A stretch of 64,000 nt of DNA from an uncultured Acidimicrobiales bacterium (GTDB lineage: Bacteria; Actinomycetota; Acidimicrobiia; Acidimicrobiales; SZUA-35). Positions 55,763 through 61,285 of the stretch are shown here, piece after piece. A program made the translations under genes and the position numbers. Each line of letters opens with the position of its first letter. Within the stretch, counting starts at the first letter, position 1. Below the pieces are notes generated by a model. That model did no database searches. It worked only from the letters and a program-made list of their open reading frames with translations, and was not told the origin of the DNA. The stretch covers positions 100,947-164,946 of the forward strand of contig CALIFY010000017.1 in NCBI GenBank assembly GCA_938021675.1, read 5' to 3'.

Positions 55763-57220
55763 TCAATATCGGGTGTACGCCGAACGTATCCGTTCAAATG
55801 CTTCTAGGTCTGCCTGCCATCCTTGCACGATGACCGATGGGTCGACCCCGGCCTCCAACTGCTCCCTCATCGATCGGTCTCCGGCTAAGCGATCGAAGAA
55901 TTCGGGCCGATCGATGACCGTCGGCCGAGGGTCGACGTTGGCGGCGGCTTGCAACACGGTGTGAAGCATGTGAGCGCCAACGGCCATCGGTTGGACGATC
56001 AGTGGGTCAGTCACTTCGATGCGAACGCCGGGGACGGTCCTGCCGCCGTATCGGGGATCGGGCACCCCGATTCGGGGGCCAGGTGAGAAGGTCGTTGGCT
56101 CGAAACGGACCCCCGGCAAGTCGGCGTCGTTCAGCGCTGACGCTACCGCTTCGGCGTCTAGCCATGGCGCACCGATCTGACCGAAGGGTGATTCGGTGCC
56201 TTGCCCGTAGCTGAGCGTCGTCGCCTCGAACAACACGGTGCTGGGATAGGTGATGGTTGACGTCGCGGTCGGAAGACCGGGACTGGGAGCAATCCACCGG
56301 AGCCCGGTTTCAGACCATCGCTGGTCCGGGGCCCAACCGTCGACCTCGACGACTTCGAGATCGAGCGATCCGACCCCTTCGATCCAACCTTCTCCGACAA
56401 TGGCCTCGGCCAATTCTCCGACGGTCATACCGTGCACGGCCGGGATCGGATACTTACCAACAAACGACGCCTGGTCTGGGGAAAGAAGCGGGCCATCAAG
56501 CCGGGCACCGAGTGGATTTGGTCGATCCAAGACGACGAAACGAACGTCGGCTTCGGCCGCGGCCTGCATGGCCAACCCCATCGTGGAGATGTAGGTGTAG
56601 AACCGGGCGCCGACATCCTGAAGATCAAAAACTAGGGTGTCGAGACCATCGAGCATCTGCGGAGTCGGTTTTCGGGTCTCACCGAAGAGACTGTAGACCG
56701 GCATTCCGGTGACGGGGTCAACCTCATCGGGCAACTCTTCGCCTGGTCCGGCGTCAGCGCGTATCCCGTGCTCGGGAGCGAACAGCGAGACAAGTTCCAC
56801 GTTTGGCGAGGCGAGAAGCAGGTTGATGAGTCGTTGCTCGCTGACCAGTGCTGCATGGTTGGTGACCAGACCTATCCGCTCGCCGGAGAAGCGGGCGAAT
56901 CCATCAGCGCCGACGACCGCAGACCCAACGGATACTTTTGGTCTAGTGTCAGAGGTACTGGTGGCCGTTTCTGGCTCAATGTCGCTGGGGGTTGAGGTAG
57001 GTAATTCATCTGAATGGTTCAGAGTCGTGCTCGACCTACCATCGTCAACACCGGGAACGACAATCACCGATCGTTCGGCCTGGGTTTGTGGGTCCGTAGG
57101 AGTCGGAGGTTGAACTGACGTGACACCGGTGCCGCTGGACGAGCAAGCTGGCAGCCACGCTGCCACAACAAGCAGAAACAGTTGCACCCAGGGCCTATGT
57201 AGGGGTTGATCCACCGACAC
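55763..57220 (-). CDS. NamZ-type (DUF1343) exo-beta-N-acetylmuramidase lipoprotein
   Basis: A 485-residue secreted protein. The signal peptide ends in LPAC (lipobox), then comes a disordered Ser/Thr/Pro-rich stretch to about residue 120. The DUF1343 domain follows: GERIGLVTNHAALV, SLFAPEHGIRADAGPGE, DTLVFDLQDVGARFYTYIST and YGQGTESPFGQIGAPWLDA. NamZ members (GH171) remove terminal MurNAc from peptidoglycan fragments, so cell-wall recycling is the likely role. The GTG at 57220 is chosen because TAGGCT ends 7 bases upstream on this strand; the longer frame from 57307 lacks support. Confidence 0.87.
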   Translation of the reverse strand: MSVDQPLHRPWVQLFLLVVAAWLPACSSSGTGVTSVQPPTPTDPQTQAERSVIVVPGVDDGRSSTTLNHSDELPTSTPSDIEPETATSTSDTRPKVSVGSAVVGADGFARFSGERIGLVTNHAALVSEQRLINLLLASPNVELVSLFAPEHGIRADAGPGEELPDEVDPVTGMPVYSLFGETRKPTPQMLDGLDTLVFDLQDVGARFYTYISTMGLAMQAAAEADVRFVVLDRPNPLGARLDGPLLSPDQASFVGKYPIPAVHGMTVGELAEAIVGEGWIEGVGSLDLEVVEVDGWAPDQRWSETGLRWIAPSPGLPTATSTITYPSTVLFEATTLSYGQGTESPFGQIGAPWLDAEAVASALNDADLPGVRFEPTTFSPGPRIGVPDPRYGGRTVPGVRIEVTDPLIVQPMAVGAHMLHTVLQAAANVDPRPTVIDRPEFFDRLAGDRSMREQLEAGVDPSVIVQGWQADLEAFERIRSAYTRY

Positions 57221-57227
57221 AACAACG

Positions 57228-57233
57228 AGCCTA
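57228..57233 (-). promoter_or_regulatory. Candidate -10 box for the NamZ-type gene
   Basis: On the minus strand TAGGCT ends 7 bases before the GTG at 57220, the same spacing and hexamer class as other leaderless-type starts in this window. Confidence 0.4.
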
Positions 57234-57353
57234 GACGACAAGATGCCCGTCTCAGCCAGCTTTACGATCGATACGGGAATTACTATCTTCAATATCAGGA
57301 CGCCCAAGGCGCTTCCTCATCGCCGCATGTGAACAGACTTGGTGACCACCAAC

Positions 57354-59171
57354 ATGACTCTCTTCGAACGCCGCATTCGAAACGTTTTTGCCAGATCAAC
57401 TCGCAGTATTGAACCACGAAGTTGCTCGCTGGAGATCCGGGATGCCACGGTGAACGACCGGTCGGGTACGCCGTTACTCGACAAGGCGTCGCTGACGCTA
57501 GATGCCGGTTCAACGACCTGCATCGTCGGTTCGGTCGATGGTGACCAGGGTGCGTTATTGTCGATTGCCCTTGGCGTCGACTCACCGCGCCATGGCTCCG
57601 TGTTATTCGATGGCCAGGAGATCACCGGCTTCCCGCTCGCCGAACGGCGGCGCCGGGCTGCGCTCGTTCACGCCGATCCATGGATCGTTGATGGCACGAT
57701 TGCCGACAACATCGTGTTTGGGAGGCCCGGTGTTACCGCCCGAGACGTCGAGCGGGCCGCCGGCAGCGTCGGCCTCGACGAGCTGATCGCATCGTTGCCG
57801 GACGGCTATGACACGGTGGTGGGCACGGGCGGGGTGTCTTTCGGAATCGGTCGGAGGCGCCAACTGGCAACCGCTCGGGCTGTTCTGACCAACCCAAGCC
57901 TTCTGGCGTTCGACGAGCCGACCAGTGGGCTCGACGGTGATGAGGAGCGCGAGATGCTCCAAACGATCGAGCTGGCCTCGGCGGGCCGCACCACGATGTT
58001 GACTACCCACCGGCTGAGTTTGGCTCGCCGATCCGGTGCGGTGTACGTCATCGACGGCGGCCAAATCATCCCATACAACCAGCCTCGCCTCGATCGCAAC
58101 GGTGAAGTGGAGAGTCTTGGCACCCGGCCGAACCACGTGGACCTCTGGGATTTGAAGATCCCTTCGGTGGTCTCGTCTGACGGCTCGGGGCGAAGCCACC
58201 TTCGGTTGCTCCGGACCGGCGAGCGACGTGCTCCCCAGCCCATCGTTACTCCCTGGGATATCACGATCGGGGCCGAGATGGCCCCCGGTTACCTGGCCTC
58301 TGGCCTGCTCGGGCGGGACGATCACACCGAGACGTGGGTGGCGTGGAGTGTCGAGCGGGAGGAGCCGGTGCGTATTAAGGTGCCCCGGCACGATCCGGTT
58401 ACGTACCCGGCCTTCGAGCAGCTGTTACGGGAGTTCAAGGCATTGACCGCCATCGGTGATGCGCGCTTCGCCGCTGTGCACGAAGCGGACCTCGAAGCCG
58501 AGATGCCACATGTCGTGCTTGAGTATCTCGATAGCCCGTCGTTGGCCGCCGACGCTCGACGCACCGGCGGGGTCGACCCGATCGATGTGTTGGCCGCAGG
58601 GTTCGAACTCGCTGCCGCCCTGACCAACCTCCACCGGCAAGGGTATGCGAATGTGAAGCTTCGCAGTCGAGATGTCCGTACCCGCTCGGGTGTCACCGTT
58701 GTCACCGACGGCAGCCACCTCCAAGAAATCGGCAGCCCGATCAGACACCGGATTGCGCCACCTGAGGTCGCTTCGCTCGCCAGGCGCCGTGTTTGGAAAC
58801 GCCCCGGATCGTCGTATCGCGCCATCCACCAGTTACAACCTCCCGAACTTGCACCGGGTGCACCGATAGACCCGAAGATGGACGTCTTTTTCCTCGGTTC
58901 TCTTTTGCACCGAATCACTGCCGGTCCGGTAGTTACGAACTCGACGTCTGACGGGTTGGCGCTCGCTCCGTACGCCACGCTGACCAGTTCGGCTCCAGAC
59001 GATATGGCGTCAATCATCGATCGCATGTTGGCATCTACGCCGGATGCCCGACCGACGGCCGAGGAGGTTGAGTGCCACTTCCGCCGAATTCTGCCCCGGT
59101 CGCTTGTTCGGCCAAAGGCCGACGCACAACGAACACGGTCGCGGCGACTGCGCGTTGTGAGTAACGCCTGA
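57354..59171 (+). CDS. Degenerate ABC-ATPase fused to a protein-kinase-like (pseudokinase) domain
   Basis: A 605-residue cytosolic-looking protein with no membrane helices. Residues about 25-240 form an ABC-exporter-type nucleotide-binding domain: Walker B SLLAFDEPTSGLD and the H-loop TTHRLS are intact, but Walker A reads GSVDGDQGAL (no GKS/T) and the signature reads VSFGIGRRRQ instead of LSGGQ. Residues about 310-580 resemble a Hanks kinase: RIKVPR (beta-3 Lys), a YANVK catalytic loop in place of HxDxK, DGS for DFG, and a C-lobe PPELAPGAPIDPKMDVFFLG. Both halves are probably inactive or highly modified. The ATG at 57354 is used; TTG/GTG lie just upstream. Confidence 0.75.
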   Translation: MTLFERRIRNVFARSTRSIEPRSCSLEIRDATVNDRSGTPLLDKASLTLDAGSTTCIVGSVDGDQGALLSIALGVDSPRHGSVLFDGQEITGFPLAERRRRAALVHADPWIVDGTIADNIVFGRPGVTARDVERAAGSVGLDELIASLPDGYDTVVGTGGVSFGIGRRRQLATARAVLTNPSLLAFDEPTSGLDGDEEREMLQTIELASAGRTTMLTTHRLSLARRSGAVYVIDGGQIIPYNQPRLDRNGEVESLGTRPNHVDLWDLKIPSVVSSDGSGRSHLRLLRTGERRAPQPIVTPWDITIGAEMAPGYLASGLLGRDDHTETWVAWSVEREEPVRIKVPRHDPVTYPAFEQLLREFKALTAIGDARFAAVHEADLEAEMPHVVLEYLDSPSLAADARRTGGVDPIDVLAAGFELAAALTNLHRQGYANVKLRSRDVRTRSGVTVVTDGSHLQEIGSPIRHRIAPPEVASLARRRVWKRPGSSYRAIHQLQPPELAPGAPIDPKMDVFFLGSLLHRITAGPVVTNSTSDGLALAPYATLTSSAPDDMASIIDRMLASTPDARPTAEEVECHFRRILPRSLVRPKADAQRTRSRRLRVVSNA

Positions 59172-59194: not shown

Positions 59195-61285
59195 CTAAAG
59201 TCCAACCGCTTCTGCAACCGGTGCGATGTCGTCCGCTGGTTCGAATCCGAAGACCCGCCCGTAGAACCACAGCTCGACTTCGTAGGACCGGATGATGTTG
59301 GCCGCCTGTCGAAATCCATGCTGTTCACCTTCGAAGGCGACATAGGCGTGGGGGATCCCCTTTGCAGCTACTGCGGCCACGATGGCCTCAGATTGGCTTG
59401 GGGGAACGATCTCGTCCTCCAACCCTTGAAGCACCAGCAACGGAGAGGACAATTTATCGGTGTGGTTGATCGGTGATCGTTCGTTGTAGAGGTCGCTCCG
59501 TTCTGGGTATGGCCCGATCAGTCCGTCGAGGTATCGACTTTCGAACTTGTGGGTGTCGGCAGCCAATGCAGAGAGGTCGGCCACACCAAACAGGTTGGTT
59601 CCCGCGCCGAAGATCTTGGACTGCTCAAGAGCAGCCAGCACGGTAAAGCCACCGGCCGAGCCACCGCGAATAGCTAGACGGGCCGCGTCGACCCGTCCGA
59701 CGTCGGCCAGGTGGCTGGCGGCAGCGATGCAGTCCTCGACGTCGACAATCCCCCATTCCCCTTTCAGGAGTTCTCGGTAGGCCCTGCCGAAACCGGTCGA
59801 ACCGCCGTAGTTCACGTCGATTACGGCAAACCCACGACTTGTCCAATATTGGGTACCGAGCCGAAGGGCCGACCCTGAGTGCGAGGTCGGCCCACCGTGC
59901 CCCATCACGATCAACGGTGGAGTCTCGCCATCGACAGCAGAGAGGTTTGGCCCGGTCGGCGGGTAGAAGAACGCGTGCGCTGTACGTCCTTTTTCCGCTC
60001 CGGATGGGAACGAGATTGCTTCTGCCCGACTGAACCAGTCGGGGCTCACGCCAGTGTCTTCGGGTGGGCGAATCACCTTGGTCGATCCACCGCTCGGATC
60101 AATCTCGTACACACCAGGCAGCGACGTCGGCCCGGCTGCCGTCACGAGCAGCTGACCGTTTTTCCCAGCAGCAAGCCCGGCGACCGCAGAAATACCTTCG
60201 GAGGGAATCGGCGTCGGCTCAGCGCCCGGCGTATTCGGGTTGACTACCCCGAGCGAGTCTACGGCCGACGTGGTGATGATGACCGCGAGCCGTCCGTCGG
60301 AGAGTTCGGTCCATCGCTGTGTGCCAAAGACCCATGGCGGTCCCCCGATCTCTTGGCCGTCGAGGGCGGTGAGCGACTGGGAAGAACTATCGGTTGGCTT
60401 CCATTGGGCAAGGTTCCAATACCCTGACTCGTCGGTCGAGTAGATGAGGCGACCATCGTTGGTCCAGTCGGCACCGTGGATCGACACGCCGCCACCGGAG
60501 CCACCAACGACTTGAATCTCGCCGATGCTGCACGGACCGGTGACGGCCGCGACGCACAGTTCGGTCGAATCCCACGGCATGTCGGGGTGATTCCAACGAA
60601 TCCAGCTCAGCCATGCGCCGTCAGGAGAGAATCGAGGGCTAGAAACGAAGTCGGTGCCGGTGGCGAGCACTACCGCCTGTCCAGGCCGACCCGCATCGAG
60701 ACCGAGCGCAACGATCTCGTTCGCAGCCTCAGCCGTGTCATCAGTTCCGTTAGTTCCGGCAGTTCCGTTAGGTCCGGCAGGTCCGGCAAGTCCGTCATCG
60801 GCGGCTGTCTTGTCTTCGGCTTTGCCGTCGTGATCCTCACGCACACAGACGAGCCAGTCACCCCCAGGGTGTTCCCGACCATCGGCGTATCGCCAGCTGG
60901 CGGGAGACGACGGGGCTGCGGTGATCGGCTCGGGATCGCCATCTCCATCTAGTGGAAGTCGGTAAACCCGCTGGTCTTCCCAGTTGGCGAAGTAGACGTT
61001 GGTCGCTCCGAGCCACCAGGCCCCGCCCCCGTACTCGTGGACTCGTGTCCGGGCTGAATAGGGAGCGGAGATTCGATCGATCGGGGCGTTGTCGTCGGTT
61101 CTGCTGACGAGAACAACCCGGCCCGCCTCCGTTGGTCGAAGCTCCGACCACCAAACTTCGCTGCCATCACCGGTTGAGCGGACCGACACACCCCCGATGC
61201 CGACCCCGCCGGCAGCGATCGATTCAGCTGAGATAGGCGACGGCCATGACCCATACGGTGTTGGAGTTGCCATCGTCACCGTCAT
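59195..61285 (-). CDS. S9-family prolyl oligopeptidase / dipeptidyl aminopeptidase
   Basis: A 696-residue serine peptidase. The N-terminal beta-propeller (about residues 20-420, with [12 protein letters not shown]-type blades) precedes an alpha/beta-hydrolase domain. That domain holds the nucleophile elbow [14 protein letters not shown], the acid in [12 protein letters not shown] and the His in EGEQHGFRQ, so the triad is complete. A low-complexity [16 protein letters not shown] insert lies near residue 165. No signal peptide is seen, so it is probably a cytosolic oligopeptidase. Its start overlaps the aminotransferase stop (ATGA), giving a two-gene operon. Confidence 0.9.

Follow-up and report, generated by a model that had tools for sequence, protein, structure and literature searches.

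A soluble fusion of an exporter-type ABC nucleotide-binding domain and a PknB-like kinase fold, with both catalytic centres broken, in a small family of Acidimicrobiales

The window analysed here is a 64,000-nucleotide stretch of a contig from an uncultured Acidimicrobiales bacterium. One of its genes encodes an exporter-type ABC nucleotide-binding domain (NBD) joined to a PknB-like kinase fold, and both catalytic centres of the fusion are broken. The fusion family is narrow and patchy, and the gene is not a lone decaying one. We think it reasonably probable that the product is a conserved soluble double pseudoenzyme, derived from an operon, that works non-catalytically as a scaffold or allosteric regulator. 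The gene, its parts and its two neighbours are listed below, with residue numbers referring to the 605-residue protein.

57354..59171, + strand: pseudo-NBD/pseudokinase fusion gene, 605 aa (frame 57354-59168 plus stop)
57426..58088, + strand: exporter-type ABC NBD, residues 25-245
57528..57551, + strand: degenerate Walker A, residues 59-66 (GSVDGDQGAL from residue 59), with Gln65 for the expected Lys
57840..57854, + strand: signature equivalent FGIGR, residues 163-167 (VSFGIGRRRQ from residue 161)
57900..57920, + strand: Walker B LLAFDEP, residues 183-189
58008..58010, + strand: H-loop His219
58089..58259, + strand: linker, residues 246-302, mostly of low model confidence
58260..59096, + strand: pseudokinase domain with PknB-like fold, residues 303-581
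58377..58379, + strand: retained beta3 lysine, Lys342
58650..58676, + strand: HRDxKxxxN equivalent NVKLRSRDV, residues 433-441, with His, Asp, Lys and Asn all replaced
58707..58715, + strand: DFG equivalent DGS, residues 452-454
59109..59168, + strand: C-terminal tail, residues 586-605, of low model confidence
55763..57307, - strand: divergent upstream neighbour, NamZ-like exo-beta-N-acetylmuramidase (context only)
59195..61285, - strand: convergent downstream neighbour, prolyl oligopeptidase S9 family (context only)

Domain architecture

The original prediction described one soluble chain joining an exporter-type NBD to a Hanks-kinase fold. Its open reading frame, coordinates and motifs (GSVDGDQGAL, VSFGIGRRRQ, LLAFDEP, His219, Lys342, YANVK and DGS) are all correct. 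We chose the ATG start because orthologs begin with M[TK]T at the equivalent position. Pfam ABC_tran matched residues 42-191 of the 605-residue protein with an E value of 9.7e-11 (42.9 bits against a cut-off of 25). The profile search that had been proposed for the kinase half gave a divided answer: Pkinase stayed below its cut-off on the window copy (E 7e-4, residues 496-575) but clearly matched the kinase half of an ortholog, L002 (7.9e-19). With phmmer against PDB sequences, the kinase half of the window copy matched PknB 3f61 (8e-7, residues 13-285 of 310).

Both folds were visible when the whole chain was modelled with AlphaFold2 (mean pLDDT 76, pTM 0.47). The NBD model, residues 22-270, matched P-gp as well as ABCB8 (5och), the latter with a Z score of 28.3 and an rmsd of 2.7 Å over 235 aligned residues. 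The kinase model, residues 303-581, matched PknB (5u94; Z 26.1, rmsd 2.9 Å, 248 aligned). Because the Foldseek/VIA lists for the whole model held mostly NBD chains, we refolded the kinase half alone. That model had a pLDDT of 82 and a pTM of 0.80, and it again matched PknB 5u94 (Z 26.3, rmsd 3.1 Å, 248 aligned). The bilobal kinase fold that had been expected in the second half of the chain is thus present in the model after residue 303. No pseudokinase entry was among the 50 matches listed for the kinase-half model, a negative that carries no weight. With a kinase fold and at least one catalytic motif lost, the fusion belongs with the bacterial pseudokinases.

The chain lacks any stretch of the hydrophobicity that a membrane helix would need, in keeping with the soluble chain originally predicted. 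The maximum Kyte-Doolittle value over 19 residues was 1.21 in the window copy and no higher than 1.54 in 12 family rows, versus 2.82 in an Actinoplanes exporter. A search for an FHA domain in the 605-residue protein gave no match at E values up to 1.

An LW motif is found in the linker of 11 of 12 rows. We considered it as a novel linear motif and dropped the idea; it was reread as a remnant of the exporter C-terminal helix, on the basis of the G075 exporter, which ends LAALWSVQRG (compared by eye). A second linker motif, resembling [HV]LR[LV]V, turned up in 8 of 12 rows, whereas 2000 shuffles gave 0.4 on average and never more than 4; the regular expression was written after the data had been seen. 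The same expression matched at the tail in only 2 of 11 rows. The tail (59109-59168) often ends VxNN.

Catalytic motifs lost and kept in the two halves

Catalysis had been predicted to be lost with the folds retained, and this holds across the family. The models show both folds, and both the Walker A lysine and the lysine of HRDxK are absent from all 13 copies (the G025 copy was read by eye). The homologues that might have revealed a functional form of the gene have neither an intact Walker A nor a complete HRDxKxxxN.

In the kinase half, Arg replaces the HRDxK lysine in 10 of 11 aligned rows, and the asparagine of HRDxxxxN is likewise missing from 13 of 13 copies (G025 by eye). The window copy has YANVK at residues 431-435 and has lost the HRD histidine, which is present in 10 of the 11 aligned rows. 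The HRD aspartate is kept in only 2 of 11 aligned rows, or in 4 of 13 copies once G002 and G025 are included; its loss appears to have come later and piecemeal.

Other residues of the kinase pocket are partly kept, so that nucleotide binding or unusual catalysis is possible as judged from the alignment: the beta3 lysine in 10 of 11 aligned rows (the eleventh has Arg), the alphaC glutamate in 11 of 11 and the DFG aspartate in 10 of 11. The kinase half might accordingly be read as an ATP/ADP sensor or a non-canonical transferase, with the NBD serving only as structure, and the available part of PMC12599244 records pseudokinases with new chemistry (SelO, SidJ). However, the HRD aspartate is gone from 9 of 13 copies, in addition to the lysine and asparagine that every copy lacks. 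Few glycines are left in the glycine loop of the family, and the G025 copy has both lost the DFG aspartate and acquired Arg at the beta3 position. We consider this explanation unlikely.

The NBD half has a different pattern of loss. In 11 aligned rows the Walker A lysine has given way to Gln (8 rows), Arg (2) or Thr (1); the second contig of G007 also has Gln. As a control, GxxGxGK[ST] is kept in 18 of 18 ordinary exporter NBDs of the order. Taken with its absence from all 13 fusions, this suggests that the NBD loss is old and uniform. The Walker B glutamate is present in 11 of 12 aligned rows; the Walker B aspartate is kept only in the window copy among 12, with Glu in 9 of them. The H-loop histidine is found in 7 of 12 aligned rows. 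The original prediction treated loss of the signature as part of the device, and this part did not stand up: the loss is confined to a few copies, [ST]xGQ being kept in 8 of the 11 rows aligned at this site (LSGGQ itself occurs in none). In the signature helix, Arg169, Ala172, Ala174 and Arg175 do not vary across the family alignment.

Since Walker A is lost while the signature is mostly kept, action of the NBD in trans is allowed. The NBD would lend its signature to the ATP site of an exporter NBD that is still intact, or block that site, and the pseudokinase would be its sensing arm. One-sided degeneracy is known in heterodimeric ABC exporters, and the invariant signature helix also fits. 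On the other hand, no exporter adjoins the fusion, and the window copy itself has FGIGR at the signature. We rate this as quite unlikely, and we are a little more doubtful of the fuller version, in which a free dead NBD would control exporters in trans and would itself answer to a fused pseudokinase acting as a sensor of nucleotide or of phospho-signalling state. If the trans reading were true, a transporter regulator would have been built wholly out of dead pieces of a transporter-kinase operon, having lost its own ATP-binding lysine and, in most copies, carrying a signature able to complete the ATP site of a partner.

Distribution, genomic setting and selection

We searched all 39 genomes of the family and 99 relatives, and found the fusion in 13 of the 39. 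Within the genus it is present in 11 of 12 genomes: nine copies are unbroken, those of G002 and G007 are split at contig ends, and G008 is without it. The absence from G008 is uninformative because the S9 neighbour was also not found there. Outside the genus there is a copy in G023 and a much diverged one in G025. The named contigs that carry the fusion come from Acidimicrobiales/Acidimicrobiia metagenome-assembled genomes. With an E-value threshold of 1e-36, a profile of the kinase half matched 1 of 296 genomes of the class, the window's own. Among 397 genomes of the order, the next best match after the family was in G075 (141 bits), followed by matches of no more than 117 bits.

Each of the 13 copies has in its vicinity one or more genes of a common housekeeping block, whose order is LeuC, LeuD, beta-propeller protein, FAD oxidase, NamZ, [fusion], alpha/beta hydrolase, S9 peptidase, aminotransferase, MsrB. 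The G025 copy is about 4 kb from the closest genes of the block, and in G021 the block is present without the fusion. The lack of an adjacent transmembrane partner had been predicted from the window, and no transporter or transmembrane partner was found beside the fusion among the neighbours examined, which are enzymes or a beta-propeller protein; a partner may lie farther off. We also looked for an operon partner in the window and rejected the candidates, the neighbouring genes being those for the beta-propeller protein, an FAD amine oxidase, NamZ, the S9 peptidase, an aminotransferase and a DUF222/HNH protein. A consensus scan yielded no promoter-like site. A defence role was rejected as well: the PADLOC matches (PD-T4-6, mad3, mad6, MkoA; kinase or NBD models) were weak and partial, and no accompanying defence context was noticed.

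As judged by codon comparisons, the fusion gene is under selection, because NG86 dN/dS, estimated for seven pairs, lay between 0.065 and 0.52. The individual values are rough, with dS high or saturated and most comparisons without a YN00 estimate: 0.065 (L007-L008), 0.237 (L002-L003), 0.253 (L005-L010), 0.343 (L005-L007), 0.346 and 0.356 (the window copy with L002 and L003) and 0.522 (L005-L012). In the closest pair, L007-L008, both domains are constrained (NBD 0.067, kinase 0.052).

These results bear on whether the gene is a decaying relic, or pseudogene, of an exporter-kinase operon. The window copy is more eroded than most orthologs, with its HRD histidine lost, DGS for DFG and FGIGR at the signature; the gene is missing from most family genomes; and dN/dS reaches 0.52 in some pairs. 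Against this, the nine unbroken orthologs in the genus are full-length and two more exist in other genera, the closest pair has the low ratio just given, and the window frame is continuous over 605 codons. The copies also share their substitutions, Lys to Gln in Walker A (8/11) and Lys to Arg in HRDxK (10/11). Orthologs, common substitutions and dN/dS together weigh against decay, which we hold to be improbable, although it may still apply to the window branch alone. An origin of the fusion in misassembly or a frameshift error is extremely improbable: although the genus genomes are all fragmented assemblies, unbroken fusions occur in 11 separate assemblies, with 31-57% kinase-half identity to the window copy.

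Kinship with exporter-kinase operons and proposed role

Descent of the fusion from an actinobacterial exporter-kinase operon is likely on the basis of sequence comparison, and this goes beyond the original prediction. A kinase profile search of 396 genomes of the phylum gave 30 loci; at most six candidates were scored per genome, and the operon counts are lower bounds. In at least 13 of the 29 loci outside the window genome, the kinase is immediately preceded, on its own strand, by the end of an exporter-type NBD. Actinoplanes L071 and G075 L098 (whose contig has only the NBD end) share this arrangement; the other operon loci include G458 L143, G430 L145 and the f77 group (L131-L139 and L141). 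The order of NBD then kinase is that of the fusion. The operons differ from it in having a transmembrane domain, at the loci checked with Pfam (L071, L143, L151 and L149), and intact NBD motifs, with Walker A, LSGGQ and DEP all present wherever the sites are covered. Their kinases also keep HxDxKxxN (15/15), with DFG, DLG or DLS where the regular expression matched, and are likely to be active.

The kinases of L071, L114, L115, L116 and L098 have a glycine loop with ETWxxW, as in the window family. The NBDs of this group are also the nearest in the tree, where the family plus L071, L114 and L116 split from 28 other NBDs with support of 100/98; this tree was built without L010 (partial), L098 and L115 (both short), and included the G025 copy (L035) on a long branch of about 3. 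In a 32-row kinase tree, from which L003, L008, L035 (on account of its very long branch) and further rows of the 67 were omitted, the family and the L071/L098/L114-L116 clade split from 18 others with support of 91/86. A quick tree of all 67 rows did not resolve the sister group of the family. The family kinase HMM scored 141-168 bits on L114, L115, L116 and L098, 113 on L071 and 84-112 on the f77 operon kinases. Stand-alone kinases reached 117 bits and generic kinases 115, so L071 scored no better than a generic kinase. The donor clade is less certain for the kinase than for the NBD because the N-lobe of the f77 kinases (APGY...DVYxVWS) resembles the window family too, by eye. Kinship to the operon clade is thus strongly supported for the NBD and moderately for the kinase, as far as sequences and trees can indicate.

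Several other loci in this collection were recorded. In G570, a single frame of 830 codons (L149:6077-8566) covers most of an exporter's transmembrane region (positions 67-273 of the 274 in the profile), followed by an NBD whose motifs are intact and a kinase that reads HLDLKPSN. A second group of exporter-kinase pairs (L131-L139, L141, L151:5063-10076 and L152:5421-10793; from f77 and from G513 of f100) has kinases with a glycine-poor loop and DLS for DFG. A histidine kinase is found nearby in L151 and L152, and L152 also has a response regulator. The L117-L129 kinases have a related glycine-loop motif, EAYLAWD, and HLD[VI]KPxN, and no NBD was found within about 1.5 kb of them. In G445 (L144:5734-8625), the exporter NBD that precedes the kinase is divided over two frames, by either a real frameshift or a sequencing error.

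The role that we favour, a non-catalytic scaffold or allosteric regulator, would have arisen by fusion of neighbouring exporter and kinase genes and loss of the transmembrane half, after which the non-catalytic role would have been taken on. The docking surfaces (signature helix and C-lobe) would be kept, and the kinase pocket, with its Lys, Glu and DFG Asp mostly in place, may sense nucleotide. A regulatory or scaffolding role had been proposed in the original prediction, and it is the most economical inference from kept folds and lost catalysis. An exporter NBD is one candidate partner, and the many Ser/Thr kinases and FHA proteins of the host are others. Pkinase matches 20 times and FHA 13 times in the host genome, which makes a phospho-dependent scaffold, by analogy with MviN-FhaA, plausible.

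That analogy concerns another actinobacterial pseudokinase domain, MviN (ActPs3), which has lost its catalytic motifs and scaffolds FhaA according to the available text of PMC12599244. MviN differs, as described there, in being part of a membrane protein and in lacking the beta3 lysine (VALT), whereas the window family keeps this lysine and is joined to an NBD. The accessible main text of the same review describes no pseudokinase family with an ABC domain and does not contain the term "ABC".

The nearest system in concept is PknF-Rv1747 of Mycobacterium tuberculosis, where a Ser/Thr kinase is paired with an ABC exporter in a two-gene operon. In the portion of PMC3908365 available, the kinase positively modulates the transporter, and Rv1747 reportedly has ATPase activity and is a phosphorylation substrate of PknF. 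As presented there, the kinase gene precedes that of the transporter, which is ABCG-type with two FHA domains, and the proteins are separate; the fusion, in contrast, is a single chain with an ABCB-type NBD, no transmembrane or FHA domain and both catalytic centres lost.

PknB, the structural match of the kinase half named above, is a catalytic kinase. The window copy shares its fold (Z 26.3 over 248 residues) but has lost the catalytic loop. We found no description of an NBD-pseudokinase fusion in the literature searched, a scope that left out subscription papers and preprints.

A small family under selection that combines two ATP-using folds in one chain, both without catalysis, is well suited to the question of what such folds do in the absence of chemistry. 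The exporter-kinase operons suggest an ancestral activity in which an ABCB-type exporter was controlled by a dedicated Ser/Thr kinase. Such control of the exporter could be tested in organisms that have both genes intact.
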